Assembly (NCBI RefSeq): GCF_032854445.1
Contig: NC_088295.1
Location: 39,731,385 to 39,795,384 of the forward strand
Direction of reading: 5' to 3'
Length of the DNA: 64,000 bases
DNA from: Liolophura sinensis
Taxonomy: Eukaryota > Mollusca > Polyplacophora > Chitonida > Chitonidae
Position numbers and translations under genes: made by a program. This document shows, in pieces, positions 19,319 through 48,350 of this stretch. Under the pieces are notes generated by a model, which was not told where the DNA came from, did not search any database, and worked only from the letters and a program-made list of their open reading frames with translations. Positions within the stretch are counted from its first letter, which is position 1; each line of letters begins with the position of its first letter.

Positions 19319-20689
19319 CTAGACGCGGGGAAATCAAAGTTCCATATTTACCCCGTGGTTCCATTTTGCCCCACCTTCGCTTTTTTTTCATTTATACACC
19401 GGCAGTCAAGTCTACATATTGGTTGGAGGATATACCCAGAGTGAATGGCCATAAATTACTAGATGCCCTTCACCATACATCATGATAAAACGTCAAATGA
19501 GAAACAGCTGTTTGTAGTGTTATATGACATCAACAAAAGTCAACTATTTCAAACAGAAGCGTTACAAGAATTGTTCACTTTTTGAAAATACCATTTTTAA
19601 TTCTTTAATCCCTATAGCACAGTTAAACGTGAAAGTGCATGGTGAAGTCACTTAATTTGTGCAATGACGTTGTCGCTTTACAACGGTGGGGCAAATCAAT
19701 AATTTTATCATGGTCGGGTATATACAATAATCAACATTATAATCCATATTCAATGATCCTATACATTGATTTCAGAGATTTATCTCAGGAAATTAAAGTC
19801 AGGTTTTGCTGATAATTTTCATTATTGTCACAAGGCCCCTACTCGCCTTTATATATTTGCTCCGCCTACACGACAAACCACCAGGTATGAAGCATGAGCA
19901 GTAAATCTGTAACGCGATATGAATGATTGCATGTTCGGGTGGATTTGGTGGGTGCATGACGGGCTGATGGGGGCTCAAAAAGTTAACGATTACAAAATAA
20001 AAATAGGGCCTAGGCTATACAGGCCTAATAAGCTAGCCTAATTACAGTTAATTTGATTTAAAGGACACTTTTTTTTAGTTTCACTGATGTGAATTAAAAT
20101 GCTTAGACCTATAATGAGGTGAATGTAGGGTAGGCGTGCAAATACACCGTAGTCTTTTATGTACTACACTAATATGATCTCCATGGACCAGTCCTATTCA
20201 AATGCTGCACATTTCACCCGATGGGAATGAAAAGGAATGCCTAAATTGCAGCCGATTATATGTATGATCGACGTTTAACAGCTTCAAATGGAGCTATGGG
20301 CATTTCATTTTAAGCTGGTGGTTATATATATATATATAGGCCTGTAGGCTTACCTGATCGGCAGTTTTATGTCTGACAGTTTGGTAGCCATGTATTTGCA
20401 GAACCTACAGCAATTACATGGCTAAAAGTGAGGATGCTCCATAATATGGTGTTTACATCGATCATTGAATGCTTAGTCACTGCGCCAGGATAAACAGTTA
20501 TAGGCTCATATCTACACCTGAGGGTAGAAATTAACACATCTGGTGAGTCATAGCATTTCTTGTGATGCGTAAATCATACAGTTAATTCCTTTTAAATATT
20601 TTTCGATATATATTTTATCCATTTTCGATCAGACTGGATAATTCCAAACCCAAGATGTATCAAGGTACAGAAACATTGGTTGTTATTTG

Positions 20690-20868
20690 TACACGGCCCC
20701 CTCTCAACCAGTGACCGCTTTCGCGTTTTTCATCGATGGCGTAGGGGGCTTTGTGACCTCTGACTTAATCACGTGATCCGCAGCCATTATGTTAAAGTTG
20801 CAGAAAATGTGGTGGTACAAAAATTCAGCATCGTAGTTCGTTTTCCTGGCGTTATTTGGGTCCAAACG
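20690..20868 (+). promoter_or_regulatory. Probable promoter/5' UTR of the SAM-TCF20/RAI1-like gene
   Basis: CpG-containing sequence just upstream of the first coding ATG (20869, A at -3). It holds ATCACGTGAT at 20768-20777, a palindromic TCACGTGA E-box of the MiT/USF type. It also holds TGACCTcTGACTT at 20754-20766, a direct repeat with one spacer like an RXR-type DR1 site. The motifs are seen; factor binding is inference. Confidence 0.4.
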
Positions 20869-20961
20869 ATGCCAGGACCTGTTGAAAGATGGCTTGAGAC
20901 GTTTATGTGTAAACAATATGCTAATATTTTTGAGGCTTTCGGTTTCAAAACGCTACAGTCG
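20869..20961 (+). CDS. SAM-TCF20/RAI1-like gene, exon 1 (first half of SAM domain)
   Basis: Starts at the first in-frame ATG and ends TCG|GTGAGT in phase 0. It encodes 31 residues with PVERWLETF…YANIFEAFGF, matching SAM helices 1-2 (WL…Y…F…GF.TL). The downstream exon supplies the rest of the fold. Confidence 0.75.
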
Positions 20962-23900
20962 GTGAGTTTTCAACCATAACATAGATGCTTTGAGCAAACA
21001 TGGCTTCCTACATCTCAGTCGTCTAGTACTGGTAGTGTGCTACGGCAATCATAGATACCACCAGTTTTAACACCATACTGTGTTTGGTTTGTAGGCTTTA
21101 ACGCTTTTATGTATTGTTGGCAGGTATGCCAGCTTCAGCCACCCCAGCTCCAGGCTATGGGGGTCGCTCAAGAGCACTGTGACAAGATTCTGGAAAATGT
21201 CCATGTTTTGAGACAAACCTTGTCACTTTCAGGTGAGATATTTCGTGGTGTTTTTGATCACATTTCCACACTTGTATGAAATGTGACATTGTGAATGGTG
21301 CAGAAATCCCAGTTATCCAGTTCACAAAATGATGTGATGAGATTGGTTATATTGCATGTAACATAGGATATATGTAATCCACTTCAAGATCTCAGACAGC
21401 CAGGGACTAGCCGCTTAACTTGTGTTTACAAGCTTTTTTCATGTTGAGAGGAGGTGAAGGTAGTGCCCAAATAACATGGGTGTTGATACAACACTCAGCC
21501 CCACTGTGACAAAGGTGTAAGTCCAATACACAGGCTTTGTTGACATTTACGAAGGCTATGCACATTGTTATGTTGTCTTAAATACTATTTCTACTTATGA
21601 GCAAGCGTAGACAGAATATTGTGAATTTTTGTTCATTTCCTTATTCATAGTTTCAAGCTTTTTTGCCGATTGCAGGAGTAGAAATAGGACCCAGAAATCA
21701 AAAAGGCAGCAAATGAGATTTAACATTGTAGGTTGTTTTTATAGACAGTGTGCTATGATCTTTGTTCATATATTTGTTCAAAGTTCATTCATTTCTTACT
21801 CAAAAGTGATGTTTTTCATGTTTTATGGTAAAATTTTACACAAGGTCTATCTTGCATGGGTTAAATTCACTTTTTTTTCACCTCCAGTAGACATGTTACA
21901 TGTACAATGGAGTGTGCTGATGATTTTTTGGACATCTGTCGTGACTGCAAAACTATGAATGTCAAGCCACTGTAAGCTACTGTAACTTAACTTCAGTTGG
22001 TGATTTCTTGTGACATGATGTTACAGTTTTATTGCAAGTTGCAGCTTCATATATTTTTAACAGCTGAAAAATAACAAGTCAGGCTGCTTTACATCAGGGA
22101 AAGATTCCCTGCTTTCACTTTGCTTTTGCAGTCAACATTCGAAACAGGTCAATCATGAAAACATTTCACATTTCAGATTAAAGACCGATATTAAATATTA
22201 CAAAGTGATCTTAAAGAGCTGTAAATTGGCGTCACAGTATGAATGGACATGATCAGACATAATACTTCTCTATTGCAACTTGAAATCCACATATTGATTT
22301 AGAAGGAACAAGGCCTGTATCACTAACTATGAATTGACGATGCTCTTATGGGAAATAGACATGTTGGTGAGATTTTAACAACCATTATTGTTAGCGAAAA
22401 TTATATTAAATAATTTGTTCATTGTTATTTGTTATAGTTCATATTTATCTTTTTTGAACAGAACATGTAGGAACAAAATTCTGGTCTATTCAGATTCCTT
22501 TTCAGCATAGACATATAACTGAATGGCTGAAACATTGACAGTGAATATTTATATCACATTGATGACAGGTGTTTATGGAGCACCTTTGAAATTCTTATCA
22601 TATTAGCTGTTTCTGTTGTTCATGTCAATGGTGTGGGTATAGTGGTGTACTTGGCAATTATCTGTGTTCATATATTTGCAGTTACATAATGATGTAAGCT
22701 TATTCAACTTTCAACCATGATCAATTGTAATTGGAAATGGAGAAAATTCTGAAACAAGTCTAAAACAATTTGAATTTTTAAAGTTTCTGTTGATTATGTT
22801 CGTGATTTTTTTAATGATGTCACTAAGTAATAATATGCTAAACAGAGTAGTGGTACAAATTATTTGGAACCGTCATGTTTGGCCAGTTGGACGCTGAGCT
22901 CTTAAATGTCTACAAGTAATATTGTATAACCTGCAGTGCTTTCATATTCTCTCTCTGTATCTAATGTTACATGTCCACAACAAGATGGAACGTTCATATC
23001 AGTGATGTAATAGGATTTCAGTATGCTTCTACCTTCCTATTGGCCAATAGACTACACATCGAATTATACATGTAGGCTCACAATTTGTCTACCCCAAGAG
23101 AGATACAGCATTGCTTGTCTTTTTATCTTTTGAGCTGAGAAACTTTTTAACAAAAATACATAAGGAATTAAAACTTGGTGCTACCAGGCACTCCAGGCTT
23201 TCAATCGGAGAGATTTTTTTTCTTTTAAAGGTGTGATGCAAATGCACAGAATCTTGAGTTTCTCCCTTTGGAGTACTTCATAGGATGGTATAGAAGTACA
23301 GTACATGTATATCTAATTTCTTAGGGATAGCTAAATGCGAGAAATTATTTGAGCAAGTCTTTCTCTTTTTGTGTCTTACTGAAATCCATGGGCTTTTTTA
23401 TACTTTACCAACAAGGGTAGGTACGGTAAGGTATATTACACCTGTATTCCACATGCTCTTATCCCACTCAGATAAGCTTCACTATTCCTATAGCTTGTGG
23501 TCATGCTCTGAAAAAAGGTCTTCTGACGTTAAGGTGTTTTATTACTTTCTTTTTATCTTTTCAACTGAGACAAGACATTTTTAAATGTTGACATGTTAGT
23601 CAGAAATATGAAAGAGGATGCCCAAGCATCCCTTTTTGAAGCTCTTTTGTCTGACCAGGGTGTCCAGATTTCATTTTTTCCTGTGTCTTGATGTTAATAA
23701 TGCTGACAAGATCAGGTGCATTAATTTTCTATTTTACCTTCACTTGGAAGAGTGGACAGGCTGGTTAACCCTAAGCAATGGCAGTGCACAGTTCAGTAAT
23801 CATGTTTCTGATTATCTTAACAGCCTAAGATGAATTATCTCCCTTAGTAACTCTCATTGCCATCAAATATCAGGAGCAAAAAAAAAAAAAAAAAGGCTCA

Positions 23901-26900
23901 ACCAATTTTCGGTTGAGGACTTTTTAAGGTTTAAGAAAGCATTAGGTCTGGCTGTAGACAGACACATGCAATTCTGAGATTTTTGTATGCAATCTTGCAG
24001 TGAACCTGTTTGGTGAAAAACATGTGAGGAAAGTATAGTATCTGGGTATTAATGTCTTAAGTATCTTTCTTGTACATCCTCTTTATGTTCACAATATTTG
24101 TCGGGAGGATTTTTAATCATTTTCATACCTCCATCAGCATACTTTGGTAATGCTTGGATGAAATATGTCTGACATGTTAAACTGTGCTTGAGTATGGTGT
24201 AAAACGCCAGTTAGATAAATAAGAAACTGTGAAAAAGGGTTGTTGATAAAAGTTTAGATTTTGTAATGTGGGAATTCCGGGTTGGAACTCCTTTGTTGTC
24301 AATGCTGAAAACAGTCCTACTGTGTCATGTGAATGGTGAAAAATGTTAAGCAACGTTCTGTTGAAATTGATTTACTGATCACCTGTCTTACCCTTTTCCA
24401 GAGGCACAAATGACAAATGTTCTCAGTTTTCACTTTTTTTCAGATGCTCATATTATAGTGAATGTGATCGAAAAAAGTTACCTAACATTTTTGGCAAGCC
24501 ACATGATACAGAGGGACTATTTCTAGCTTCATCGATAAAAAGAGTTTGAACTCCAGTGTGCACTAGTATACATGTAATTTACACTCCCATTTGAGAGGTC
24601 AAAACTCAAATGCTTGGAGAGTCTCAGTGCTGGAAGAAGCTTACTTCATTGCAAGCAAAGATTATTTGTGAAGACAGGCTATCTGCTATCTGCCTGTCTA
24701 TGAAAATACAAGTACATATAATATATACATATAATATATATATATATATATATAATACATATATAATATGAACACATGGTACATGTATGTCCTCTCATAT
24801 TTCAGTGTGTTAAATCTGTTATTGTATGGAAGATAGTGTTAACATTTTAATTATCCTGTGATTTCATTTTCCATTACAGCATTCTGTAAATTGATACGTG
24901 TATGTGGTGGTTACATATCGATGTGTAGACCATTGAAATGTACAAACATATTGCACTTGCAAGTGAAATTACCTATCTGCTTTATTTACTTTTCTAGTTA
25001 GATTTGTACACATATTTATTCAGTCAACACATCTTGAATATATGTTGATTTATATGAATGGAAAAAATTGTGTTTAAACATACAAGGTACATGTCAGACA
25101 AGTGATAGTAATAACTTCACTTCTGACATTCCTGTTATAAAGGCCTGTTGCTTTTTATTGTCTACTGCCTTGTCAGACATGCTTATTTTGTATAGGCCGA
25201 AAATATTTAAAGGCTGCTGCTCAACTGCTTGTGAGAACAGCAAACATGAGAGGTTTTTTTCTCCACCAATGATCACTGAGTCAACTCATGCTTACACCAT
25301 ATCTATGACTTGTTGATGGGGGTTTTTTTAGCAGGAAATGTTATATTTTTTGACAATGTCATTGAAATTGCATTGCATCATATATGCAGCAGAGCAAAGA
25401 TTGAATTCTGTGTGGGAGAAGGATGTATACAACTTTTTCCTGTTCTTGGCCAAACTCATTTTTGGCCAACTTTTGTTTTTGTGCAGGTCAGAAGGTAGGG
25501 CTGTAAAGAAATTGCACTTGTTTTCTGTGCTCATTCAGTGGACAATAATGTATTTTGGTATATGTGAATAGGCATTTTCTAAAGCTACCTTGTTAATACC
25601 TGTGCAATGCTCGTCTCTGTGTTACCAAAGAGAATGGCTAATCTAAAGTTAACAGTGCGGAGGAAAACTCCAGATGAATAAATTTGACTCATTAGTTCAG
25701 AAAATCTCTGTGACTCTCCCCTCCACCCCCCACACACATTTTCTTGTCATCAAGTATATTTAATAAATTTTGATAACCCGGACAAATTCTTTTTTTTCCT
25801 CGCTGCCCTTCTATATGACTGACAGTACAGATAGCCAGAGAAATTTGGGTATTAAAAGGTCAGCTTTAGAGAGAATAGTTAGTGGGAAAGTTGGCATTTT
25901 CTAACAATTTCACAGTGGACTCATTCCCCCTTCCCTACCCCCTAGTTTTAGTGTATTTATCAGGGAAAGAATGTTGTAAATAATTAAAGAGATTGTGTTA
26001 TCAGAAGTTTTTTTTGAACTGCGTATTACTGTTGTATATGTCAAGTGTTTTATATGTGGATCAACCTGTACAACAAGAACAAATTCTTTTTTCAAGTGTT
26101 GCAAGTTTATGTATCTTACATGCCACAATTGTAATGATCTTGTGGCCTCGTGAGCCATATTTAGATATATGATATGATATAATATATGATATTTAGAAAA
26201 CCATCACAAATTATCTAGTGTTGTGGGAACTCAACAAACTGAAGGCAATGTGTATTGGTTCAGTATTATATTTTTGTGGGAACAATGTGAGGAGTCTGTT
26301 GCGTGCTATATTTTGCAGAATTTTAACATGCATGAATATGTTGTAAATAAAAGCTGCAGAAGCCATTGACTGATGGATTTATCTGGTTGCAATGCTAATC
26401 CTGTGTCCATGTAAGGGTTGTGGTTGAACAGGGTTAGCTGTTGGCTTGTGTGGTCAGTGAGATACAGGGTCATTTGGTGATCACCAGAGGACCTACTGCT
26501 GCCATGTCCACTGCTGTACATGTACTTGTATGGTTGGGTCCAACCAGCAGTAACAAAGGCAGAGACAAGCTGTCAGTGGAGGAAATCACCTCTGCCTAAC
26601 TGCCACCAGCTCAACCACCTGCAGTTTTTTGTTCTCCCCCCCATCCCTCTGGGCTGGAGGTTTCACAAGGGGGCTGTGCTGTCTTTGCATACCACTGCCC
26701 TTAACCTGCTCAGTCCTTCATGCTCTTTGTGTCTACAGCCAGGCAGATGTCCTTTAGCATGTTTCGGGGGCGTTGTAAAATTAGCTGTATCAGTTAAGAC
26801 ATATGCTGACAAGCATATCTACACAGGATTATATGGTGTTCATACAGTCCATTTCAAAATTATAACCACTCGTTAAAGTTGTCATCAGTTTATGGGCTTC

Positions 26901-29900
26901 TCAAATAAGAATATCAAACAGATCTTTCATTGACCTGTCTAGTACAGGACTGGCCCTTGAAGCCATGTGCACCACTGCTTGGTTGTGGTGATCTTGGGCA
27001 CATGTACAGTCTGCATGTAAAACCATACATTCATGGTGCAAACTGATTGTGGAGGTTTACATCACCATGTAGTCCTTGAAAAGAATAAATACTGGGTACA
27101 GTGATGTTAAGAAAACCTACTTCAGCTGCTTACTCTGCCTATTTAAATTTCATCCTAAATGTAGGCTCCCAGGTAATTTGTTTACTTTTATGTGGTTACA
27201 GGCTTATAACAAATCCATGTGAAATGTACTTACTCAGTGCAGTTTCACTTTTTTTGCAAATATTCCATATTAAATCTTCTGTATACATATATTAAGCATA
27301 CAGAGTTTATTTCCACATACCCCCCCCCCCTTTTGTGAACTGTTTCTAATGCTAATCTCTGTTGTAAGCAAATTTAATTCTCAGTGTATTAACAAGGGCG
27401 TGTAAAGGCCAAAACATTAATTCACTAGTTTGAATTTGTCATTTATCTGCTTAAGGGCATAGAAATTGAATGTAATGCTACTGAAGTAAGACAGCTCATG
27501 AATATTCAACATGCCCTTGATCTGTAATGAACACCTGTGTAACGTGTGCTCATACAATCATGAAGAGAGATTGTATTTCATGTCAATAAATTGATTCAAG
27601 CACTACCATTACTAAATAGGAAAACGGATATTTGCCAGGTACCATGAACTATCCAGATGAGATGTCAGGAAGTAGCCCCTATGGTCCTGCGGGAAATGGA
27701 ATGGCCCACCCTTCTCACCCATCCATGGGCTATCCTGCCTCTGACACCAGTCAAATGGTGAGTAAAATAATTTAAAGCAGTTTATAAATTACTTCAGTGA
27801 CAAAGACTTCGAGATTTGGATAAGTGTAGAGCACAGAGAATTCAGATCGTCCGTTATTCAAAGAATGGTCAATACAGTGTTATGTGTTTTGTGCCACATT
27901 AGGATTATAAACAAATCCAGATAAAATTCTTTCTCTGTGTGTGCCTTTTTTGATAGTATTCCAGGGAAACATTTGTGCTGTGGTTATAGCACTGTATGGC
28001 ACATCACTCTAAGTACTTTTAAGAAAATACGAAGGCTGGTTTGCCTGTTTGAAGACACCAGTGACATTTTCTCATTGGTTTGACTGGTCAATAAGGTAGC
28101 AAAGGGAGTTTATTTCCTCTAAAAGGCTCTCTGTTTTTATAGTGGTACGCAGGTGGAATCAGGGGTTTAGCCAGGGTGTTAGGTGAGGGTGTCTCACTTG
28201 AGTGACCCAGGACCAATAGGCCAGGGTCGAGGGTCCGGAGATGCAGTCTAGAGGCGTTCAGAGGTCTATAGTGGACAAAACTTAGTCAAACCACTGTTCT
28301 TCATGTTGTCATCATTTTTGTTATTTCCTCTGAAAATTTTATATGTTCATGTGACTAAGGTTATTTTATTACAGATATATGAAGTATGAAAGTTGTCTTT
28401 ACACATCATGCGAATGTCATTAAAGCCTTCTTGGCCTCTGCATCAGTGACTTGGTACATGTATTTTTTAGCATGATCACAGAGCCTGATAGTAAGATTGA
28501 TGGTTTAAATGAAAATGAATTACACTAAACAAATATGGTGACTTTAATTTGGACGTGATTTTTGGTCGCACTGGCCACTGTGAATGATACTTATGTGGAA
28601 TTTATAGAGGGGGCTGACATCAACAAAACTGAAAGTAAACCAGACCTGAAATTTCTCGTGTCCTCAGTCCACTCGCCCACTCTGACTGCATACTTTACAT
28701 TTCAGTGTGTTGTCAGCCAGAAAGTAACTTAGCCATGTGAACATTTTCGTCCAGCCTGCAGAAAACGTATTTGTTTCGGTACGCCTTTTTTTTCGTCGCT
28801 TTGGGCTGTTCCCTATGCTGACTCAGCGGTCCACTTCCAACATGTGCGATGAAGCCATCGGTGTCAATGTCAGCACCAGCGTGTGCCTGCAGTTCAACAC
28901 CAAGCTCCAAATCAGAATCCTTTTCGGTGTTTGAGTGTACACTAGCACGAGTTGAAGCTTTGTTGAAGAAAGACATTATCTTGCTAGATTTATCAGAGCC
29001 ACGTTTTGACATCTTCCAATTTCAGCACTTATGTACTTAGGCCGACTCTAAGTGGTTCGATGTTTCCTATACGTACCGCATGCGTGGATCGGGTCTTGAA
29101 TGTACTATGATGGGAAATTCCAAAAGTATTAAAACTTTCGATTTAAGATGGATTTAAGATCTATTTTAATATGCCAAAAGTTTACAGAAATAATCTTTTG
29201 TCCAGGGCAGGAGATTTAAGACAATTTCGCCGCACTTCGTACTTTAGTGAAGGGAGACAACTCTTTGTCCGGCTAATACCAGCTCTGGTTGGATAGCTAG
29301 GTCACGTGGATCGAAGGGTGGATTTTAAAACATTTCGGCTCGGTAGGCGTTCTTGAACTATGGTAGTGTTCAGCTAAGTGATTTTAAAATACAGCCAAAC
29401 AAGGAATAAGGACAGAATAACAAGGTATGGACATTTCATGTTTTACTGATTTATAGACCGTCTTAACATATACCTACATGTATTTAGCTGGAAAATAATC
29501 AGGCTCCTGTCTCAAATCCGCTCTGCCCGTCACATTATCACACGCCTGGTTTGCCCGTCGCACGGACGGGGAGACGTGTGGCTGGCTAAATCCTTTAATG
29601 GAGTCAACGTTGAGCATCAAAATTTTTTAATAGAGCTCTACATGTGTACAGTTAGTTTCGTAATTACAAATTTTTGCCTGAATGAAAGCATTGGTTTACA
29701 TTACTTTTCAGTATGATGTACATCATACTTAAGAATACTGGTAATGATTTTGCAAGATAGATTAACTCAAAAGATGAACCCATGCCCTTGTATGATAGAA
29801 ATCAGCATATTGATGTAACCGAATGCATGCAGATCCAGGCTGTTGTAAACCCATGTCCGAAGGTCCTGTTAGGTAATGACTGTGCCCGGTCCTCTTTAAA

Positions 29901-32900
29901 GCCATGCTAGATCTTTCCTTGGAGATTCTGGGTCCCTGTCAGCTTGGCTATCAAAAGAAAGAGATTATGTTGGCAGCATGTCTGTTAGAAACTGATAGAG
30001 CTTCTAGTTACTGCTAGACACAATGGAGACAATTCACTCATTAGTGAAGGATCGAAGCTGAGAAAATCAGCCTGGGAGATACTGTACCCGGATTCCTGGA
30101 GAGCATCAGTCTGGTAGAGTCTGTATGGCTTGGCAGGTCTTATTCAGCCTGTGCAATGCTGTCCCAGTAAACTCTGCTCTGATCACCTGTTCTTATGACT
30201 TGTATCAAGGATTCATCCAGAGCTTGTTCATTCAACAGGAAGCACTCCACATGCACACTAATGGTTAAGCGAAAACATGTGTGCTGTTGAGGTAGTGAAC
30301 ATTTTGAGGTATAGAGTAGTAGTATTGTATATGTATAAGGAACATCACATTTTCATTATGGTTTTTAAGTAGTTTTTGATGAACTCCTATACCGATTGCT
30401 GTACATATATGTATCCGGGCTTTCACTATCTTTCTGAGTAGACGGCTGACCTGGAAAACTAGCCAGCTACTAGACACAAAATTACAGAGGAAAATAGGAG
30501 CTGTGATCAAAGTGGGTGTCTACCTGCTCATTTTTTCACATAAAGATGGGAGGCTGCATTAAGCCAGAGGCACCTTCTAATGAACACCCTGATGTGTGCA
30601 TTAAGATATGGATCAACCATAGTATGTACATGTAGTTGCGCTTATGTTGTCCACAAAGCTTTGCCCTGTGTATACAGTGGAACAAGATATACATGTAAAA
30701 TATTGCAAAATATGTGCTAAAAATGATTGAAGGTGATTATTCTCTTTGACAATTCACTGGGGAGAATGATGTTACCAAGGCCACTCAGCTGTCCAGCTAC
30801 CCATGGATATAAAACATAGAAGTTAGTACATGTACATGGGACCTAGTTTCATAATTTGGTATATCATGTTCAGGGACCGGTTTCATGAAGCTCACTTAGC
30901 TAAGTTTACCCTTAAATACCATGATGAAAATTGATGTATGTTGTTGAGATATAAAGTGCACTTAGTTAAGGGCTACTTAGCACTAAATATGCTTCATGAA
31001 AGCAGCCCCAGGGACAACATTGTGCAGTGGAAAAACAAAAGAATTTTATTTATTTTAACTGAGCAGTGTACCCATCATACTTTTTGATTTCCTTTTTTAA
31101 TGTATATGCTGAATATGTATTTCAAAAGCATAAAGATGACCCGCTGTTTCCTGTCATGTTAGTAGTCAGTGTCATAGTGTTTGAGTGTATGGAACATTTG
31201 CTTTGGAACTCCCTGTTAACTATTCCCATTTGTAAGAAGAAAAAATAAGATTGTGACATTTTGTTTGGATATTCAATCCAAAAGAAAAAACATTTGTCGG
31301 AAGAGCTTAGTTCAGCGTAGATTGTGGCGGTATAACGTCAGTTATGTACTGAATTCAGATGTAAAGTAGAGATGGTCCCTAACCAGACAAACAGGAGTGT
31401 TGAGTAACTTTTCTCATACATATTTGCTGGCTTGTAAAGAAGTAGGATATGTCAACAGTGAAAACATGGTAACAGTTGTCTTCCCTGTTATGTTGGTGTG
31501 CTCTTTGTCAAGTTAATGGCCAGGCCATTACTCTGTGCCCCACACTTCAAATACATAATATTCATCCAGGTTTATTTTCGTAGGTGTAGGGAGGCCCTAT
31601 GCCACTGTGACACAGGCTTAACGCCTGGGTGACTTCAGGCTGCTCTCAGTGCAGCAAGTGAACAATGTTTTAAAATGGCTGTACCTGGTTTGTCTGCATT
31701 GTGTACATATACTACATGTGTAAACTACATGCCGTGAGTTCATCAGATCGTTTGAAGTTGTTTTTATTATGAAGATGTTTGGCAGGGACCCATTAATTTA
31801 AATTAAACACTAATTTTTTCATAATATAGCATTAGCCCACCCTCTTTCGGATGTGGGATTAATGCTAATGGCTTTAGGTGGTAAATGCTTGCACTTTGAG
31901 TATGTATATTATGCAGCATTTGTAACACATTATCCTGGATTATTATCACTATTTTTTGTTTCCCTGATGAACACGAAGAACTCTGCTTGTTGATAGTAAG
32001 TTAACCCTTGTGATTATGTAGTGAGATGCCATTACTTATTACAAGATGCCAGAGAGCTATGCGGGAAACGTACTCATAGACATGTACTTGTACATCCTGG
32101 TTCTCCTGACTTGTATGTTTGTACATGTAGATGCAATACGTTCACCTGTTATGTTCTCCCTATTTTGAGGGACCCTGCAGATAAGGTGTGGTGTCATGTC
32201 TAGAGCTGTGTACATGGAAATGCCTTCTGTATCCGCATTACTGAGTGAGACTACCCTGCACTCAAACTGCTGCTCTCTCCACATCTACACTTACATGTGG
32301 ATTCATGGGTTTGACATTTCTTAATGAGTCACTCTTGTACTCGTGATGGTGTTTCTTGAAATCTGTTGCGTGTAGTCCAGTGGTAAATTTAATTCCCCCT
32401 TGTGAAGCAGACAGGCTAAGCTTTGATTGTGTTGCACATGTGCGCATAGGCCAAGACTCTTGTCAGGCAGGAGCCACATCAGTGATGTATCACTCTGTGT
32501 TTCACAGATGCCCAGTGGTAGGTTCATTGCCTTCACTCTGTTCAGACAATGTTTGTTACATATAATGTACATATGATGATATATATGTATTCTTTCTTAA
32601 GACAGTATATGTATTACATTGTCTTCCTTTTGGCCTGGAAAAATTGATCAACCTAAAATCATGAGTGTAATATCAGTGCAGTGACTTGTTTCTTAAGTCG
32701 GAGCTCCTATGTGTGTTTTGAGTCATCATTTGAGAGTCGTGTCTTCGTAATGTCTGCCCCAAGTCAGAGATAGTCACATGTAATGATGTATTTCTGGCTC
32801 CATACCCTTTATATTGATACAAAATCTGTTTGGGATAAACTGAAGGTACACTATTTAAGAATGCTTCTCTTCATTTATTTTAATAAGCCCTATGGATTTT

Positions 32901-35900
32901 GAAAGGATCTAGTTGTTCGTGTTGTACATGTACGTGTTTCTATTCTTTACATTATCTCAGATCAGCTTAGCCCTTCATCATATTACATGTGCCCAATATA
33001 CAGTATTTCTGAAACCGTGTTAGGATGCCTAGGGTGTATTTACATGTAACCTTGTTGTGTGATAATTTTATTTAGATTGATAAAGTAACAGTTTCTTTTA
33101 CACTCTGAATTGTGCATCCTATGCACTATAGTTTTATTGGGGTAAGGGGGAGGGGCCATGCCTGCAAGTACTTGTACATGTAGTTTTTGATGTTCTGCCG
33201 AGAGTACATTTTCTCATACGAAAAGCTTGAGAAAATGTAGAGAACATGTGTATTGGCTCACAGAACAGATGCATTTACGCGTTCTCTTCATGTACTTTCC
33301 GTACAAGCAGATCACAGTTACTGTGAAAGAATGAGTAAAGTGATGTGGAAATGTCCCATAACATCCAAACTTCCTTGAGCAATTAAAAGTTAATTGCTGC
33401 TGTTAAAATTAATATGAAAGTGTCTCAGCTTCCAGATGTATCATCAGATGATATGCTCCTCCAAAATTATTTAAGCACCAGTTAGGACAATATATGATGT
33501 GACTCTACACTTTCAAGCAAGTGTTAAGACGAGAGTGTCTCGACATCCAGATGTATCGTCAGCAGATGATCTGCTCCTCCAAAATTATTTAAGTACTAGT
33601 TAAGACAATATATAATGTGACTCTACACTTTCCAGCAAGTGTTAAGACGAGAGTGTCTCGACACCCAGATGTATCATCAGCAGATGATATGCTCCTCCAA
33701 AATTATTTAAGCACTAGTTAAGCCAATATATAATGTGACTACACCTCTCCTTTATTATTACGTGCTTGTTGGGGGACATATCCTCTGACCGTGTTGTGAA
33801 GTGCGTTATAATCTATGAGGTCACTGCGTGTTGCCTTCAAGTAATGGTAGGCCTATAAGCCCTAAGAGCAATCACAGTGGGAAAAGGCAATTGCCAGTGT
33901 TTACCAATACTCTTGTATTTTATAACATAAATGGAATTGTTTATAACAAATGGATTTCCCTTAAGTCTGTATTGTTGTTTTATTTTTTGATTTCACTAAA
34001 AAAAACCGGCTTGAATGTTGCCTTATTTTTGCTATCCAGCATTTCTGTATAATGCCTGAAATGTAATATCTCGAAGCCAGCATTGTTTGGTAGCTTTGTT
34101 TACCTCATTTTCAAGTCCCATGAAGTAGCATATTATTGCCCACATTGTGACACTCTACAAAGCACAGATGGATTAATAGGTCATAAATTGCACATCTGTA
34201 TATGTAGCTAAATACTCAGCTTTACAAACTTTAGAGTCAGTGAGCGCTTAAGGTTTAACATCGACCTTAACAATTTTTCAGTCATATGATGACGAAGGAC
34301 TCCTTAGAGTGCATGTAATGTACCTCCTTGTTGCATGACAGATTTCCACCGCTTTTTGATCTATTGCTGCTTCATTGAGATGCCTTACCGAAGGCAAGTA
34401 AACCGCCCCGCCCGAGCCATTATACTGATGCGGGTCAACCAGTCATTGCACTATCCACTTCATGCTGAATGCCAAGCGAGGAAGTTACAACTTCCACTTT
34501 TAAAGCCTTAGGTGTGACTCAACCCAGGATTTACCCTGGATCCACGGCTCCCGAAGCGGACACTCTACCAACTGTGCTGTCGAGGCCGGTTCACAAACTT
34601 TAGATGTGTTCATGCCCTTTAAGTATTGAGATGAAGTTTTGCACTGACTGCCAAAATCTACTTGTACTGTTTTGATTCATATTGTTTTGTTTTCTGTTCA
34701 CCTCTATTGTTGTGTTGTTTTGTGGGGAAGAGTATCTTCTCGTCTGAAGTGTTCCGTGGAGTGCTCTCATTATATACCTGTACACATACGTGATTCTTCT
34801 TCAGTTTGTGAAATCTACTTAACATCAACCTACAGTCCACTTAATTGGTTTTTAACATTGTATATTGCAGGCCATGATAGGGCAGTATGCAGCCATGCAG
34901 GGTTACAGAGAGCAAATGCAAAGCCAAACCATGATGTCCCCACCCCACTACCCCAACCCCCAAGGGGTGTATCGCAACCAGCAACATCAACAACAACAAC
35001 AGCAGCAACAGCACCAGCTTCATCATCATCAACAGCAGCATCATCAGCAGCAACAACAGTTTATGAACCAGCAGTTCAGTAGCATGTATGGCAACCAGAA
35101 CTTTGGGGCTGTCCAGAACCCTATGATGATGAACAGCATTGCTGCAGGAAACCCAATGTTTGGGCGCTCCTCTGCTCCCCAGGGCCAAGGAGCAGGGTCA
35201 CCATCAGTCCACCCTCCCCCTCACCCCCACCTCCGGCAGGGCAGTCTCTCCCAGAACCCGCAGCAAGTGGCAGACAACATCCTCCAGATGGCATCATCTA
35301 CATATTCCAGCTCGCAGACTGTACAGGTACCTCTTAATAAGGGCAGATCTGCGCCCTACCATAACCCAAGGACTAACTATTCCATGCCCAGTGGCTCCAT
35401 GTCTGGCATGGGATTACCTCCTGGCATGGGAAACTTGCCCAGTGTGATGGCCATGCAACAAGGCATGAACATGCAGACTGGTCAGACACGGCAGGTGATG
35501 CAGCCAGCAGGCAGTCCATCACGGCTGGCTCGTAACAATGCACAGTTTGGTTACCCCAGTTCATCCCCACACCCTCATCAGCCGAGAACGTCACCTATCA
35601 GCCCTATGCTCATGCACAGCCCAGCCTCACAGCACAGTAACCAGAGTGTTCACAACAATCCTAGTCCAGGACCTCACCAGAGTCCAGCAGGAGGAGGGAG
35701 CATACGGTCCCCTGTCTCGCCAAACATGCCTGTGGGAGGGATGCAGTCTCCATGTGGCAAACAGCCCAGTATGATGTCACCGTCTCCCAGTCAGCAGTTA
35801 CGCTCCCCTAACCAGCACATTCAGCATATGACCTCACCCATGATGAACTGTACCCCTATCTCCTCTCCCAGTAACCCTGTGGTACACAATAGTATGCGCT

Positions 35901-38900
35901 CCCCGTTGACTCAACAGCCCCAGCACCATTCCCCTCACCCCCAGTACTATTCTCATATACAACAGAACTCACAGCCTCAAGGTCACTACTCCCCTGTCCC
36001 TCATAGCCTCAGTTCCCCTTTGAGTCACACCAGTTCTCCCCCCTACATGCCGGGCGGTGCCCGCACAAGCCCACCTCTTTCCAGCCCACATTCATCAGTA
36101 AGTAAACCCTCCCCCTCGGGCAGTACTGGAAGCACCTCCTGTGTAAACCAACCACCTTCAGGCGGTCATCAGAAACCAGCTGCAGCACAGTTCAATCCGT
36201 TACAATCATTACAAAAACTCGTGATGTTACCTGAAACCCAGGTAGTTGATCCCAAAAGTGTAGTAAATGATGCTTGTTTATCATCCCCTTCCCAGGAACC
36301 GGGGCACGAAGAGCCGCCAAAAAACTGTGATATCTCCACTGACCCTTCCCGAGGGGGTCAGCTGGAGGGTAAATGTGTCGACGGGAAACATTGTGAGGAG
36401 GTTAAGTCAGTTCATGACACCACACCAGCTCACTCTATTAGCTCGGGACAGTCTTGTCCGGACAACAAGTCAGATCAGCCGCAGACTTGTTATAACCCCA
36501 GTGAATCTGTGAATAAGCCTTCCGAACAGTTGCTACTGTGCAATGATAAATATGAGCAGCCTAAAGAGACAAGGACTAATGTAACCGTACCGGCTCAGAG
36601 AACAGGTGTGAATATTCCCAGGGAACAGTCCAGTCAGAATAATCATGTTCAAGAAAAGCCTGTGACAGCTGTTAAATCTTTCACTGATAGGAAACAGGGT
36701 ATTACAACAAAAGAGGGACAAAAAAGCAAACAGGAAAACATGTCTCCAAAGAAAAGATTTTTGGGCTCGCAGCCATTAATTAATGGCGGCCCATCCAGGT
36801 GTGAAAAAGTTTCCAAGTCCAATTTAAGTATGGAAGTGACATCAAACGGTTCTGAAAAATCTGCTGTAGAAACGGTCAATGATAAAATACATCCCAAAAT
36901 TTCGTACAGTCCTGTATGTTCACAGAAGCCTATAGAAAAGAAAATTACTGATCAGGATTCTAATGGCTTGGTGGACACTGAAGGCTATGTTAACAAAAAG
37001 TTCTTCAAAAAGCGAAGAATGGCTGAAAATCATCCAGTTAGTGTTGGACTCGTGTCGTGTGGCAACTCTGGCGTGAGGAGCAGTCCTGTGTCACAGACAG
37101 TCACAAGTGTGATTCAAGCTCCTCCTCGATACGGGATGCCTGTTTATGATGATGTGTCTGACGCATCTGATTTAGAGGAAGAGCTGTCTGTGCGTAAAGA
37201 TAGTACTGTTACATACACAAGAGAGAACAGAGACTTCTTGAACATGTTGTCTTCACCTTTGTTGCAGAATGTCTCTTGTCCCTCATATCCCAGTAACAAC
37301 TCTGATTCTGAGAGCATAGACACAGACTCTGTTTCCAAACCGTTTAAAGACTTTCAGGATAAAGTTTTTCCCTCAAATAGTGAAGAAGCATCAGTGGAGG
37401 ATAGAAGTGATGTTATGAAAAAATCAAATAAAAGTGAAGAGGTACAGAAATCTGTATCCATCGCAAACCACAATCATCAGTCCTCGCCAAAATCACCATC
37501 TTCACGTACCACAGATGGCTTACGGCTAGGTGACAATCAGGATGAACCAGACGCAATTGTCTCGCCTGATAAACTGCGACCTAAGAGGAAAGTGGAGCCA
37601 AAGGTCAAAGATGACATCAAGTCCAAGGTGAATTCTTTGAAAGAAGAAACACCACGGATAATGAAGAAGCCCAGAACAGCAGAGGTGGCTATTGAAGATT
37701 CTGTAAATCCCGAAAATAATATGTGGTCTGTTTCTGAGAAAACGTCCAAAGACAAAGAGGAATCTTCAGAAAAACCTGCTTCAAGGGACCAAGACGCCTT
37801 TCCAGAGCCCTTAAGCAATTCTCCAGACAAAACGACCAAGTCAGTGAATTTCAGCGAAGGCTCGAAATCAATTAAATCTGACAGCAAAGTCAGTAGTAAA
37901 CAGTTGGACTCTCAGGAAACAGGAAAATCATCGAACAAAGGAGATGAAGGGTCTCAAGGGTCAAGTGTTAAAAAAAGTTTAAGAAATGATGTCTTTTCTA
38001 AGGATAGTGGTGCAGTGACAAAAAATTCATTGGGGTCTTCTTCTGGAGATAATGCTTCAGTGACAACTGGTGTCAAAACACCTTGCCAATCAATCTCTGA
38101 AAGTGACACTCCCAAAAAGAGGGGTTTGAGGAAATGGAAAACATCTTTGGCAAAGGACAAGGTAGAAAGTGAACCTGTTTCCCCAATTTCAGAGATTCGT
38201 TCAGAACCTGCTTCAAGATTGTCAGAAGCAAAAGAGGCTGTTGACCCGGACTCGGCAAATGTGTCTCTAGCTACAGATGTGGATAGCACACCAGGCAGTT
38301 CTAGGAAATCCCTGAACACAAGTGATCAACCTTTCCAAAAAAGAAGAGGTCGGCCTCCAGGAAGTAAAAATAAAGTGAAAAAGGAGAAAAAGCACTCCAA
38401 GCGTAAACGCGATATTTATGAGTATAATTCTGATGAGGATAAGAAATCTGGCAAATCCTCCAAAAAGTCTTTGATAATGCCACCCCCTGCTGGGCGATCG
38501 GTGGGGGGGAAGAAGGCTGCCGGGCGGCCGGGTAAGAAAGACTTGCCCACGGGTGGTGTAAGCTCTGGACCTTTCATTCGGGTGGTTGGGTCTAAGCGAA
38601 AACCTACCAAATGTGTGATAATGAATGCTGCTCAAGATGAGTCTGAGACAAAGCCTGTTAAAAACAAGAAACTCTCCCAGCCTTCCTCGACACCTTCTGC
38701 GTCCATGTCGATACAATTGTCAAATTTACCCTCCGATAAATCTGTGTTAGTTCCCGGAATGTCGCCCTCAGACGAGACCCTGTGGTACTGCTGTATATGT
38801 AGAAAGCACAGTAGTTACAAATTCCTCGGTGACTTGTTTGGGCCTTACTACCCTAAAGGGTATCAGCCTGCTCCGTCTACTGCTGAAGATGGTTCAGAGA

Positions 38901-41900
38901 AACCTAAACAAAGGCGGAAGAAAATGTTTGTGTTAGCAGACCAAGTGCCGAACTATGCGGCTCTGATGAAGCCAGTGAAGGGTAAAAAGCTGGCTGGTGA
39001 AAAGAAGCTGAGCTTGTCCCCATCTTTTGAATTGGCCTCTGGTGCTATAGCTGATTCAGATGAACTCTGGGTACATGAAGACTGCGTTCTCTGGTCTGAT
39101 GGTGTGTACTTGATAGAGAATAACATTTACGGACTACAGGAAGCTGCCAATGTTGCTGCAACAGCGGTAAGTGTCGGTGAAAAATGTTGTGGATTAGAAC
39201 CCACTGTGATTCAATCCAACCCACTTTTTTCCCTATTTTTTTTTTGATCTGCCTACATCCGTGCTTTATAATCTACCTTGCTGAAGTTGATGTTTTTTTG
39301 ATAACAGTTCATTTCTTCATAAATGGATTTTCTGGCCCACTATGATATAATATGCTGATGAAGCGATATTCAAAAAATTAGTACGAAATCCCCAATACTT
39401 GGTTGTAAAAGTCTGATTACTAGTTAGTGTTTTCAGGAAACTAAAATTTGCAAAGAACAACGAAAATTTAAAAAAAAATAGGGCTCAGAATGGGAATATT
39501 GATAACATTGTTTGGGTATGACTTGTTGAATTAATCATACCGGTGTGTCAAGAGCATGAAGTCAACTGGATTAGCATACATGTACATGTATTTTCTTCTC
39601 TAGAAGGCCAAAACTAAATTATTATATGTTTAATGTAACCCTACCGACCGTTTAAAAAGGCCCCGACGGAAATTCATTTTTCGTGTTTTTACAGATGCCA
39701 AATTATTTTATTTTATTTCATTTAATATTTTTTTCGCCGATCTTTTGAAATGTCACTCTGTTTATACAGGTGACGGGCGCTCTTTCGACGTATACAATTT
39801 CCGAAAATTTGGCGTAAGGATGGCTTATATTTGCTGAAACACGGAGATCACTGCCATCCTTAGCCCGGACGACGTGATGACACTGTAACTGTATTCTTCG
39901 ACCCATCAGCAAATTTCGCCGTATACGCAATACTTAATATCCAAATCGACTTAGTACATGGTCTGTCCGCAAGCTAATTAAGACATTTATGCATCTTTTG
40001 TAACCATTGACACTGACCTTTATTTGATATTTTCTCAGAAAATCTCAGTCGAATTCGAAAAGAAGGTCTGCTTTGAGTTATTTGGTACGTCAGTCACGCT
40101 GACGTCTTTTGAGAATCTGACATGATGTAAAAATATCGCACAACGTTATTTAAGTACTCCTGTCTATGCAACAGCTCTGCACGCAAAGGTGGACAACGAT
40201 GTTGTTTTGAAAGGCAATTGTTGAGCGAAGTAGAAGTATGAAATGCCAAAACGTCAACCATATGTACGCATGTGTCGCGCGCGAAAACATTAACTGCACG
40301 TTTGTGAATATAGGGCTCAGAAAGCGAGATACACGGTATTATGGAATTAGCAGTTGTTATTCACTTCACTTTTGCCGATGACATGCAAGTGTTTTCTCGT
40401 ATTTTCGTTCCAGCGGAAAGCTCTGTTCCCAGATACATATTTTACTGTGCATAGCTTCTTAGCTGTGAACTAGTCCTTATCAATATTAAAAGTTCAGTCG
40501 ATTTTTTGGTGGACAGTTTCCTCTCTCGCTGTTGAACAATGGCGGCCTTGTAGCACTTCCACGGGTTTATACGTATCCGGCACCCGTAGATCGAAATAGG
40601 CCTACCTGTGAAGTGTTTTCACCCGTATCCATTTCGATAGCGGTAAAATGGTGTTGCCATATTGGAGTGGCAGGATGGGGGGGGGGACTATACTTTACTG
40701 AACTGGTGACCAGTGTCCTTGTGTTTCCATAGAGAGTCGAGAGTTCATATTAATTACTCATTTTGTGAGATAATCAGTGTAACATGTTCAAGAAAATAGA
40801 CGTCGCAGCTGTGAGCCTCTTTCGACGCAAGATATAGAATTCTCCGTGATCCCATTCTTTTCGCCACGCTACATCTTTAAAACACACCTAATCTCGCGAA
40901 ATTGAATTGCTGAGAATTGTTATAACAGGCGCGAAATATTTACAAACACTAACAAAAATTGGACACAGGCCTGTCCCTCCATAATATAATCATGGTGACA
41001 GATAGAACCCTTTCACCATAATATCCGCTGAAAGATAATCAAAAGGGAAGATTTTTGTTTTATACCTACGTTATCAAAGAATCCCCAACAGAGCCGCTTG
41101 TATGTTAGCATCCACCATTGTCTTACTCTCATTTTACATGTGTCAGAGCCCCCCTGATAAGGTTCGGGAGATCCCAAAATTTAAAAAAATGGGTTAGTCA
41201 GGTGTGCAGATACCTTCTCTCCTGTCAAAACTCTATTTTAGGGAGCATGTAGCAGGGAATGTATTGGTATAATTTCCTGAAATGTCATTGAGATTACCCA
41301 CAGCCAGATGCTGAGAAAAGTTTGATGGATAGAAACTGTATCTGTTTACTGATACATTGTTGTGAAGTGGAAACAATGGTGGTGACACTAGAAAGGGGAT
41401 GTGCATTTCAAAATGGATACAGGGAAGTTCACATACAAAGACAAGGCTGATATATTCCATCCTTTAATCTTCATGCAACACAACATGATTTTGGCCCTCT
41501 GCTTCCTCATGTAAAAATGTTTTGGACAGTACCAATTTGGTCAAAGCTGGTGATCTGAGCTGAGGCTCACTTGGGTGCTTACATGCTTCACTTTTTTTTT
41601 TACAAGCATGCACATTGAATGATGAATTGAAGACAGAATAAATATTTGATCCGTCACATGAAGGAAGAATCCCCTAGATATCACAAAGTTTAATCAAAAT
41701 TAGGAAACTGGAAACTTCGCAGTATAGATTTTTGTTTTACTAGGTCATGAGGTTTTGCTTCACTTGCTTCAGCTGGGCATGATTTTGGTCATATTTTCAG
41801 ATGCCTGCCCCCCAGCATAGGACCAAAAATGCTAGCACAAACTGTTGGCTTAAATTATGCTCATAAAAATGATTAATAAATGTTTACCTTTTCGTTGTAT

Positions 41901-44778: not shown

Positions 44779-47700
44779 CATTTGTCCAAGGTACAGATCA
44801 TGTATTACATGATGAGCACATCATTCCAGTCTGTCACATCAGATTTGTACAGTACTTACTTTAAAGAGGTTGTACCACAGGTTTTTGACTCTTCCTTGTA
44901 GTATTTGGAGTGTTAAAATGAATTTAAAGTTTGAAAAAGTTTAAATTCTATCCACTTCAGGAATTTCAGGAACTTGATTAACAATTTTGAACAGCAACAC
45001 CTGCACAGACAAGGCTGATATTCAGTAACTAAATAGGCTATTTCCAAAAAAAAAAAAAATAGCATAAATTTGATTGGATTTGCACTGATTGATTTTTTGC
45101 CAAATTCCTCCAGTATGGTCTCTTTTTAAAGACGTGTTAATGTCCTAGGTGTCAAGAGTAGCAGTGAAGACAACATGAGTGGTCACTTTCACAAACTGTA
45201 AATTCAATATCTCATAACTTTTCAAATGAAGTTGCTGCATTATCAATGCCTTAAAGGCTATGCGATGAGTGACAGTAAATTGAGACACAAAGTTTTGTGG
45301 CAGGGAGTCCTGATCAGGGAGGTTTAGTCTAGTAATTGACATCTGCTCCCAGTAACTAGTTTGTGGCTAGTATTAAATGTTTTACATGCAGTGTGTAAAG
45401 TAGTCAGTTTTAACATCATGGTCGTTTCACTGATTTGAATCCTCTTAACTGCCGGATGGTCGTGGGTTTCCTCCCTGTTTCATCACCATAATGCTGACTG
45501 CAGTCGTATAAGTGAAACGGTCTTGAGTAAGGCGTAAAACTCAAACCAAATAAATAAATAAATGCAATCTTAAATGCATGGATGTTCCAGTGGTGCTTCT
45601 AACAGATGTCTTCATTTAATTGGACAGCAGTGCAGAAACATTGTGCCAAAAGCTGGTGATCATTATTACTGATGTGTGTTTATATTTTTAGAAGGCTGGA
45701 CTTCCAAGTCTGCGCTGATTTCTGGATGTCAGTGGTAGCAGTCACATGGAAGACGAGTATACAGTCCTGGACGGATTTCTGCCTTCCGAGGAGCTGATGC
45801 AGGCTCCGCGTTACTGAGTGTGTACTGCTGAAGGTGTACTGCTGCTAGCGTGAAGAGAGACATTCCCTCCATGTTCTGGTGTCCCCTGCACCCAACCCCC
45901 AGGAGACTACAGTAACGGCCCTTGACAGCCTGGAGGCTCATACAAGCATAGTGATTTTCAACACACCAACCATTTACAGTGGACGAAGACGACCTCTATA
46001 GTGATGGACTTATTTTCACAAAATCTCAACTGTTTTATCATCTAGGACAGCATGTTTTGCTTTTAAAGCATTTGAATTGTTTGGCAATACACATAGACAG
46101 AGATGATAAGCGTAAGATACATGTAACATGTTACACCTCTCCTTCATCACAATGCTGTTGTTGGGGGTTAGATCTTCCCACTGCTTTGTAAGTCAAGTGC
46201 ATTGTATGAAGTTTGTTAGCGTGTTATAATATAGGAACAGAAAGAAAGTGCTGTGTGATGTAAACTGTAAAACAAATTGATATGATATGGTTTTTATTCA
46301 ATAATTACACAATAGCCAAGCCAGTGGGTGGAAAGAATTAACAAAATTAAAAAATTAGATTATCTACTGAAACTGTTACAAGTATGAAGTTGAACAGATG
46401 TTTGCAAGAACAAATTCGTAAAAAAATTTGGTGTATACATTTGTAACCATGTTAGATTGAATTGCATATTATAACAAAGTCTGTTATAATGAAGGACAGG
46501 TGTACCTCAGTACATGTATTTATTCCTTGCATAGTTTCACAGTTGTTGAAAACGGGTTAATGCAGAGGCGGGCATTGGTTCCTAGAAAAGTTGATGATGG
46601 TACATCTTGTAGAAGATGCTGTATGTTGGGTCAGATTGAGATTGATCTGTCAGACTGAAGTGCTTTTGTTTGTCAGGTTTTCATGGGTGCAAAAGCTTGG
46701 GTCATAATAGGAGTGGTCACAGAACTTGATACTCCTATGGCATTGAAACTGTTCTTTGTTTCAGTGTGTCATATATTGGAACAGGAACTCGAATCAGGTT
46801 AGTTTTGATTATGATATCTGAGCATTAGACCAGCCATAGATGACATTGGGGTCAGTTAACTCTTCTGTTCTAACTGGGGCTGTGAAATGGTTATGCTTGT
46901 TTAAAACTACACCAGCTAGATTGTTAAAACAATATTGGATAGAGATCATTGAAATCATGGTCCCACATATCAGGGTACTGAAAGTGGAGGCAACACTGTT
47001 CGCTCTTGGGTCTCAAGTGAAGCTACTGTACTAGACTTGTTAAAATCAAATGCAGCGCATTGCTCCCATAATTTGGTTGGCTATTTTGGTAAATTATTCA
47101 CAATGCGGCAAGAAAGTCAAAAGGTGAAATGTAATTTAATTGTTTGGAGGAAAGACCTGATAAGAAGTATTTTTTTGTGATAGCCATTGGACAAGCATTT
47201 CCTCCATATAGCATGGGTAAAATACCGTTGTTTGTTGGAAACCACCATACGCCAACACTGGTAAGCCTGTAAGTTGTCTTGTATTGGTGTTGTATCGTGA
47301 CTTACCAAGCCTCCTGTGTAGACATATTGTATGATACTGTAGACTAGAACAAGTTTGACATACTTTTTGCTTTCCAGATATTTATTTGTTGTACTTTGTA
47401 ATCTGCTACAAAGGATAGCCGGGAATTTTCTGTACATTAAGATGTATATATTGTCCATATATAGGGATATTATCTATCTCCTAGCCACATCTTTGTATAT
47501 ATCAAGCTTGTACAGAGAGATGTCTTGTCATGTGATGGTTTATTAAGGAACAAATGTCATATTTTTTCAGGTAATTCATGTCAGCAGTTTCTGACTTCAA
47601 CCTTGTTTGTTCATGTTGAAAAAGTTCTTTTAAATCACCAAAATTGTTTCGGCTCAGTTACATGCCGTCAAGTTCACTGAAAGACATCCATCCAAATAAC

Positions 47701-48350
47701 ATACAGTGTAAAGTAAAGGAGGTTCAAATATGTATACTGACTCGGTGTTGGGTCATACCTGAAGAAGTCATTATTCAATTCTTTGTAATACCAATCCAAG
47801 CAGACGTATGAAATATTAATGACTAAATATTATAAACATTTCAACTGTTGATTACGCATGGCTGCTGTGATGCTTAACAAGGTGCTATTGGAAAAGTCTC
47901 TAAAAGTTTTCATTTTGAATTTACAGAACAGGTCATGAAGAAATGATGTCCAAAAAAACACATAATGGCAAAGGACTGCCATCTTATCAGTTTTGTTTAT
48001 TGTTGTTTGTAAATGTATAAAAACAGCTTGCATTGTGTTTGCTGGACATTTAGTTACTCTCTGGGATCATTATTATGTCACGTTCAACTTTTTTCTTTCA
48101 AAGGAATTTCCTTGAAACTGTGGCCCTGTTCGAGTGACAAATGTTACCGCAGTTTGTCAGTGTACAATTCTGTGATTTAGTTACTCGCCAATAATCCTCC
48201 TTCCAGAAATGGACATCTGCAGTGAGCTAACAGGTTTCATTCCTATTCATTCTGCATAGTATCTAATTGAATCACTGATAATATTGATAGCGTGTCAGTC
48301 ACTACATTTCATTGTGATCTGTGAAAAATAAACTTGTTTCAATTTTCTCC
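44779..48350 (+). other. Probable 3' UTR and 3' UTR intron of the TCF20/RAI1-like gene
   Basis: A possible UTR intron runs from 44791 to an acceptor 'tttatatttttag' at 45691. After it, unique sequence continues without genes to AATAAA at 48327-48332, a plausible poly(A) signal. The extent is inference. Confidence 0.35.
45447..45563 (+). mobile_element. SINE family 1, 5'-truncated
   Basis: Begins 'gccggatggtcgtgggtttcctccc' and ends 'gtcttgagtaaggcgtaaaac' followed by (AAAT)n. Confidence 0.82.

Follow-up and report, generated by a model that had tools for sequence, protein, structure and literature searches.

The locus described here raises the question of whether two small exons encoding a SAM domain belong to the TCF20/RAI1-type gene that lies downstream of them and, if so, what such a domain contributes to a chromatin protein of this family. 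The exons are found in a 64,000-nucleotide stretch of the genome of the chiton Liolophura sinensis (NCBI RefSeq assembly GCF_032854445.1, contig NC_088295.1, positions 39,731,385 to 39,795,384 of the forward strand; hereafter, the window). To our knowledge, the human TCF20 and RAI1 proteins have no SAM domain; both genes have been described, in the parts of the literature available to us, as dosage-sensitive neurodevelopmental disease genes. In this report, we provide comparative sequence evidence that the SAM exons almost certainly belong to one gene with a SAM-first, ePHD-last architecture, and that this architecture is very probably ancestral to protostomes and deuterostomes. The best explanation overall, in which we have good though lesser confidence, is a single chiton TCF20/RAI1 gene whose N-terminal, probably ancestral SAM would serve as a docking module.

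The gene lies on the + strand and comprises seven coding exons, whose spliced product is 1603 residues long; the coding span is 24 kb, all coding-exon junctions are gt/ag, and the reading phases are consistent across the seven exons. Coding exon 1 (20869..20961, 93 nt) opens with the start ATG, encodes residues 1-31, the first half of the SAM, and ends at a gtgagt donor, and coding exon 2 (21124..21232, 109 nt; acceptor gcag, donor gtgaga) encodes the second half, residues 32-67 plus one base (G). Across the 6.4-kb intron that follows, this base and the start of coding exon 3 (27639..27757; acceptor ccag, donor gtgagt) together read G GT ACC ATG AAC, and the peptide of exon 3, GTMNYPDEM...TSQM, connects the SAM with the TCF20-like body. 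Exon 3 is in phase with the large exon 34871..39166 (4296 nt), and the junction between the two is present also in the public protein model of the locus, P0019 (Liolophura sinensis LOC135468974 isoform X2), which equals residues 70-1603 letter for letter and is given exactly by exons 3-7. Because exon 34871 is in phase 0, the SAM exons join it in frame only via 27639..27757; a direct join of SAM exon 2 to 34871 was rejected as a phase misfit. The large exon encodes a Q/S/P-rich low-complexity body, an AT-hook and the first half of the ePHD (38783..39166; a CxxC pair, a 91-residue loop and WVHEDCVLW), the remainder of which follows in the exons 42936..43029 and 44192..44241 (ECYLDEENFSLLCLKHK); the last coding exon is 44728..44778. 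An earlier note on this DNA had described the first three exons, and its coordinates, splice sites, phases, extra G and GT ACC ATG AAC start were all reproduced; it had ended the span at 27757, but the gene continues on to a stop ending at 44778.

The same note had claimed that the two small exons encode a complete SAM, and Pfam bears this out: residues 5-61 of the joined exons 1 and 2 match SAM_1 at 31 bits (curated cut-off 23; 3.3e-07) and SAM_2 at 28.1 bits (curated cut-off 20.5; 2.2e-06). When the 609-Mb genome was searched with the chiton SAM, the sole match was its own pair of exons (E 6.7e-18 and 2.8e-15); since nothing else fell below E 1.19, the SAM match is not a chance one. The Pfam SAM family, run against the same genome, gave 30 listed matches that do not include the exons at 20869 and 21124, because each of these exons holds only half a domain. 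All 16 distinct homologous SAMs that we compared match both SAM_1 and SAM_2 with E values no higher than 1, and the positions M1, W8, L9, F12, C14, F21, G25, T28, C33, L40, I53 and L60 are invariant in all of them. An AlphaFold2 model of the Pecten SAM (not the chiton's own) has a mean pLDDT of 86.4 and five helices, at residues 4-10, 15-23, 29-32, 37-43 and 47-65.

Related proteins carry the same domain in the same place. Three protein searches, with residues 1-120, the hemichordate SAM and the ePHD as queries and with a sensitivity that hangs on shared 5-residue words, returned 52 proteins, of which 20 begin with a full SAM, one has half a SAM and 31 have none, the last group including truncated pieces, the chiton's own model, gastropod models and gar RAI1. 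The SAM profile behind the count of 20 was built from the 16 distinct pieces, which are the starts of 18 of those 20 proteins, and so measures likeness to the set, with Pfam as the independent test. The search with residues 1-120 covered 5.8 billion proteins, with lengths set by the full protein, and yielded 18 proteins: in 16 (P0003-P0018) the SAM starts at residue 1, P0020 has its second half only, and P0019 has none; a precomputed Pfam SAM label stands on nine of the 18. The named sources among the 16 are Sinanodonta, Argopecten, Pecten, Ylistrum, Patella, Solemya, Ostrea, two Saccostrea, the brachiopod Lingula and the hemichordate Saccoglossus. The hemichordate SAM returned itself and 13 others, molluscan and brachiopod proteins included, and the ePHD search, which did not list even the Lingula and Saccoglossus proteins, added 34 further proteins, with a SAM in Dreissena, Mya (one of two), Mercenaria and Ruditapes. 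The earlier note had proposed checking whether the TCF20/RAI1 proteins of other lophotrochozoans carry a SAM at the N-terminus, and had named an unrelated leader in all species as the outcome that would speak against its reading; what leads 20 of the 52 proteins, those of a brachiopod and also of a hemichordate included, is the SAM. Insects, annelids, echinoderms, lancelets and cnidarians did not appear by name among the proteins that these word-dependent searches returned.

Five of the SAM-bearing proteins (P0007, P0008, P0009, P0013 and P0014) are single open frames of 1343-1614 residues on contigs of 4754-6811 bases. Because the same span takes 24 kb in the chiton, we read these short contigs as probable assembled transcripts, although a processed gene copy would look alike. 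Molluscan database predictions named 'transcription factor 20-like' or 'CG5098-like' represent the same protein with the same SAM, and the architecture is thus already in databases, as predictions only; CG5098 itself figures, in the available part of one paper, as a ChIP-qPCR test gene. An extra segment, approximately NPASxALRSVAMNAN, lies after the SAM and ahead of the MNxYPD stretch in P0010, P0011, P0017, P0020 and P0026, and is conserved in Patella, Solemya, Lingula, Potamilus and Nucella, the Nucella protein being one without a SAM. A cassette exon for this segment was sought in the window, with nothing convincing found (best E 0.13, outside the relevant intron).

The identity of the body rests on its C-terminal side. 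The ePHD matches PF13771 at 40.6 bits (cut-off 29.1), and a BLASTP comparison with gar RAI1 gave 28% identity over 230 residues (E 5e-22) on the ePHD side, a similarity that reaches past the PHD and takes in GDLxGPYYP and the PFIRV side. According to the portion of PMC3799622 available, TCF20 and RAI1 share Trp positions around ligands 3 and 4, and an AT-hook is present in TCF20 and not in RAI1. The chiton protein has both features: in WVHEDCVLW, a Trp occurs two positions ahead of ligand 3 and another three positions behind ligand 4, and KRRGRPPGSKNK runs from residue 1264, with the AT-hook core RGRPPG (38345..38362, + strand) from residue 1266 on. Its 91-residue ePHD loop is slightly below the >100 given for SPBP (TCF20) and RAI1 in the same portion of that study. 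An ePHD search of the 609-Mb genome gave this gene's exons as best matches, with two matches elsewhere that are 33% and 30% identical, and the genome appears to have no other TCF20/RAI1 orthologue. Within the low-complexity body, two conserved motifs were observed, VADNILQMA at 35267 on (residue 240 on; a looser pattern in 36 of the 52 returned proteins) and NPLQSLQKLVMLPETQVVDPKS at 36194 on (residue 549 on; pattern in 25 of the 52); a Pfam scan of P0019 gave nothing at either.

Base composition provides a further line of evidence for a single transcription unit. Invertebrates that methylate their gene bodies show CpG depletion over the part of a gene that is transcribed. From 10 to 28.5 kb of the window, the share of CpG among CpG+TpG+CpA drops from 17.7% to 4.3% at a change point at 21046 (interval 20956-21290), with a log-likelihood ratio (LLR) of 72.2, where 200 shuffles gave no value above 6.5. 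It climbs again at 49298 (scan 41-55 kb; LLR 44.4, a value obtained without shuffles), beyond two candidate poly(A) signals (48327 and 48838) and past the 3' end. We interpret the CpG-depleted block so delimited (21046..49297) as the footprint that gene-body methylation has left on a single transcription unit. The block is interrupted at ~29 kb and 39-41 kb, where CpG-normal islands (~29001-30000, observed/expected ratio (o/e) 0.78; 39001-41000, o/e 0.93-1.07) may be recent insertions or internal promoters. In 400-nt windows, CpG o/e is 0.82-1.06 over 20400..20868 (+ strand), which is probably the promoter and 5' leader, compared with 0.07-0.33 at 21.0-21.8 and 26.8-28.4 kb; the 400-nt interval with o/e 1.06 ranks 21st of 318 in the whole stretch and alone would not be striking as an island. 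Because the ratio reaches up to 1.06 before 20869 but is 0.07-0.2 just before 27639 (windows starting 26801-27401), transcription looks to start at the SAM exon. That the SAM exons and the TCF20-like body form one gene, which the earlier note had offered as an inference, is thus supported by the homologues, the single-frame contigs and the CpG footprint.

Several observations nevertheless weigh against a SAM that belongs to this gene as a fixed and ancestral part. The public model P0019 starts at ATG 27644, without the SAM; seven of the eight named gastropod proteins returned have none, Patella being the only exception, and six of them (P0027, P0028, P0030, P0033, P0035 and P0036) start at the corresponding Met, with the Nucella protein P0026 also SAM-less. 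Ten proteins from lgn contigs (P0021-P0024, P0034, P0039-P0041, P0043 and P0051) likewise have no SAM, and the deuterostome case is a single predicted protein, P0018 of Saccoglossus. In addition, two of the 16 homologous SAMs, those of Dreissena and Mya, fall below the curated Pfam cut-offs that the other 14 exceed, and in three heterodont clams the SAM is 47-55% identical to that of the chiton, compared with 62-68% for the ePHD end. The SAM-less gastropod, lgn and chiton models may be truncated or may have had exons missed; genuine short isoforms or losses are further possibilities.

Two other accounts of the locus can be set against a single gene with one SAM-bearing product. The 6.4-kb intron between the SAM exons and 27639, and the disregard of these exons by the public chiton model, might indicate a separate small gene, or part of another gene, with an in-phase junction that is coincidental. 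We consider this highly improbable, as 20 proteins have the same SAM in the same place, SAM and body occur as a single frame on short contigs, the CpG footprint runs continuous with the TCF20 body, two islands aside, and read-through of exon 2 hits stops in the intron; a separate SAM gene was rejected on the single genome copy, the shared SAM position in homologues and the footprint. A more serious, though still rather unlikely, alternative is that one locus makes both a long form with the SAM and a form without it, the latter starting at the exon-3 Met via another 5' exon, in which case the SAM would be a regulated option. P0019 and the six gastropod models that begin at this Met are in its favor, and since the Met lies 5 nt past the acceptor, a transcript for the short form would have to carry either a 5' exon without coding sequence or a leader left unspliced. 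However, small, distant first exons are often missed by gene predictors, and a CpG-normal stretch is absent just before 27639. Moreover, a Met is found at this place in only six of the 20 proteins with a SAM, which gives no support to a conserved start without the domain, although chitons and gastropods may have an optional one.

One gene with an N-terminal SAM therefore remains our preferred reading, and the conservation of the domain was compared with that of the rest of the protein. Identity to the chiton protein was computed for 13 of the 20 SAM-bearing proteins in eight regions, the ePHD end being residues 1515-1590. In 10 of the 13 species the SAM is 68-89% identical and the ePHD end 53-71%, and the SAM ranks highest of the eight regions in each; GPVERWLETFMCKQYA is unchanged in the chiton and in eight of the 20 SAM-bearing proteins, those of Lingula, Saccoglossus and six others. 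The SAM is drifting in the heterodont clam proteins P0029, P0031, P0032 and P0037 (Dreissena, Mya, Mercenaria and Ruditapes), possibly a loss in progress. A lineage-specific SAM fusion was rejected, as the brachiopod and the hemichordate also carry the domain. Since the SAM looks ancestral, not newly joined, the surprise is its apparent absence in vertebrates; gar RAI1, the only named vertebrate sequence returned and one marked partial, shares the ePHD side with the chiton protein but has no SAM, and, as far as these sequences indicate, the domain was probably lost before or within the vertebrate line.

How the SAM acts is less clear. Its nearest solved relatives by profile are EphA4 (4.4e-09), EphB2 (2.4e-08) and SAMD5 (3.3e-06), with other Eph receptors, Caskin and ANKS1 also found; Caskin-1 (2.4e-05) and, weakly, diacylglycerol kinase delta (0.3) are among the matches, whereas no chain named Polyhomeotic, Scm or TEL/ETV6 appeared up to E 10. 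The SAMs of Caskin-1 and diacylglycerol kinase delta polymerise, and the chiton SAM, like those of Polyhomeotic and Scm, sits on a chromatin protein, here beside a long low-complexity region; it might thus polymerise as they do and cluster TCF20/RAI1-bound chromatin. In Polyhomeotic and Scm, however, the SAM is C-terminal, whereas that of the chiton is N-terminal. SAM polymers have been described for Polyhomeotic in the part of the literature at hand, but the best profile matches here are Eph receptors, whose SAMs are monomers according to the available part of PMC5993539, and the charges of the two classical faces, end helix and mid-loop, are not complementary. Of the roles suggested by the earlier note, Polycomb-like polymerisation is therefore not favored and appears improbable, although polymer-forming SAMs may be among the relatives of this one; partner binding stands.

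The Eph mode of docking does not fit either. In the Eph complexes covered by the same part of PMC5993539, a basic end helix beginning with Gly contacts an acidic mid-loop. Among the 16 homologous SAMs, column 48, matched to the Eph Gly, is E/D in 12, K in four and Gly in none; EphA4 itself has no Gly at that column in the alignment, and Gly is hence not universal among Eph SAMs. Because the end-helix start is net negative in 14 of the 16 and the mid-loop, with 0-2 acidic residues, is poor in them, neither classical SAM face is evident. The chiton-type SAM, although closest by profile to the Eph and SAMD5 domains, differs from them in its protein context, acidic end helix, acid-poor mid-loop and alpha5 start one residue shorter; the good conservation of its first 18 residues points to a different binding surface. 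On these charges, docking seems likelier than polymerisation, and that heterotypic docking is the main role of the SAM we regard as an evenly balanced proposition. We propose that the C-terminal ePHD and AT-hook would hold the protein on nucleosomes and DNA, that the long low-complexity part would act as an activation region, and that the SAM would be the docking face for a dedicated partner, recruiting it to chromatin. Mammalian RAI1 and TCF20 have been linked, in the literature as available, with PHF14 and HMG20A; should vertebrates be SAM-less, the partner of the SAM need not be either.

Elsewhere in the window, a single open frame of 583 aa at 8467-10218 (+ strand) encodes an MGAT4-type glycosyltransferase (PF04666), two stretches of which match the MGAT4A C-terminal domain (PF23524), and this suggests that the domain is tandemly doubled. 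A second CpG-poor block (55001-64000, o/e 0.16-0.56) is probably another broadly expressed gene. An Rfam search gave no match.

No title among those listed in searches of an open-access library pointed to a paper on a SAM in TCF20 or RAI1, and neither 'SAM domain' nor 'sterile alpha' occurs in the main text of the phylogenetic study of the family (PMC3799622), the accessible part of which presents an ePHD tree of vertebrates, lancelet and insects. The SAM in invertebrate orthologues would therefore extend the published history of the family. Tentatively, we envisage the ancestral bilaterian TCF20/RAI1 as a SAM-tethered chromatin adaptor, in which the SAM, more constrained than any other part, binds a partner of its own via a face unlike the known end-helix/mid-loop pair; in vertebrates, the SAM would have disappeared by about the time when TCF20 and RAI1 duplicated, or earlier, and the N-terminus would have been remodelled. 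If this is true, invertebrates retain an ancestral mode of action that is absent from the human disease proteins. The workings of the N-terminal half of TCF20 and RAI1 are, in our judgment, poorly known, and the strongly conserved invertebrate SAM may offer a defined module with which to find the partner that the ancestral protein had; its presence suggests that a piece has gone missing from the human proteins.

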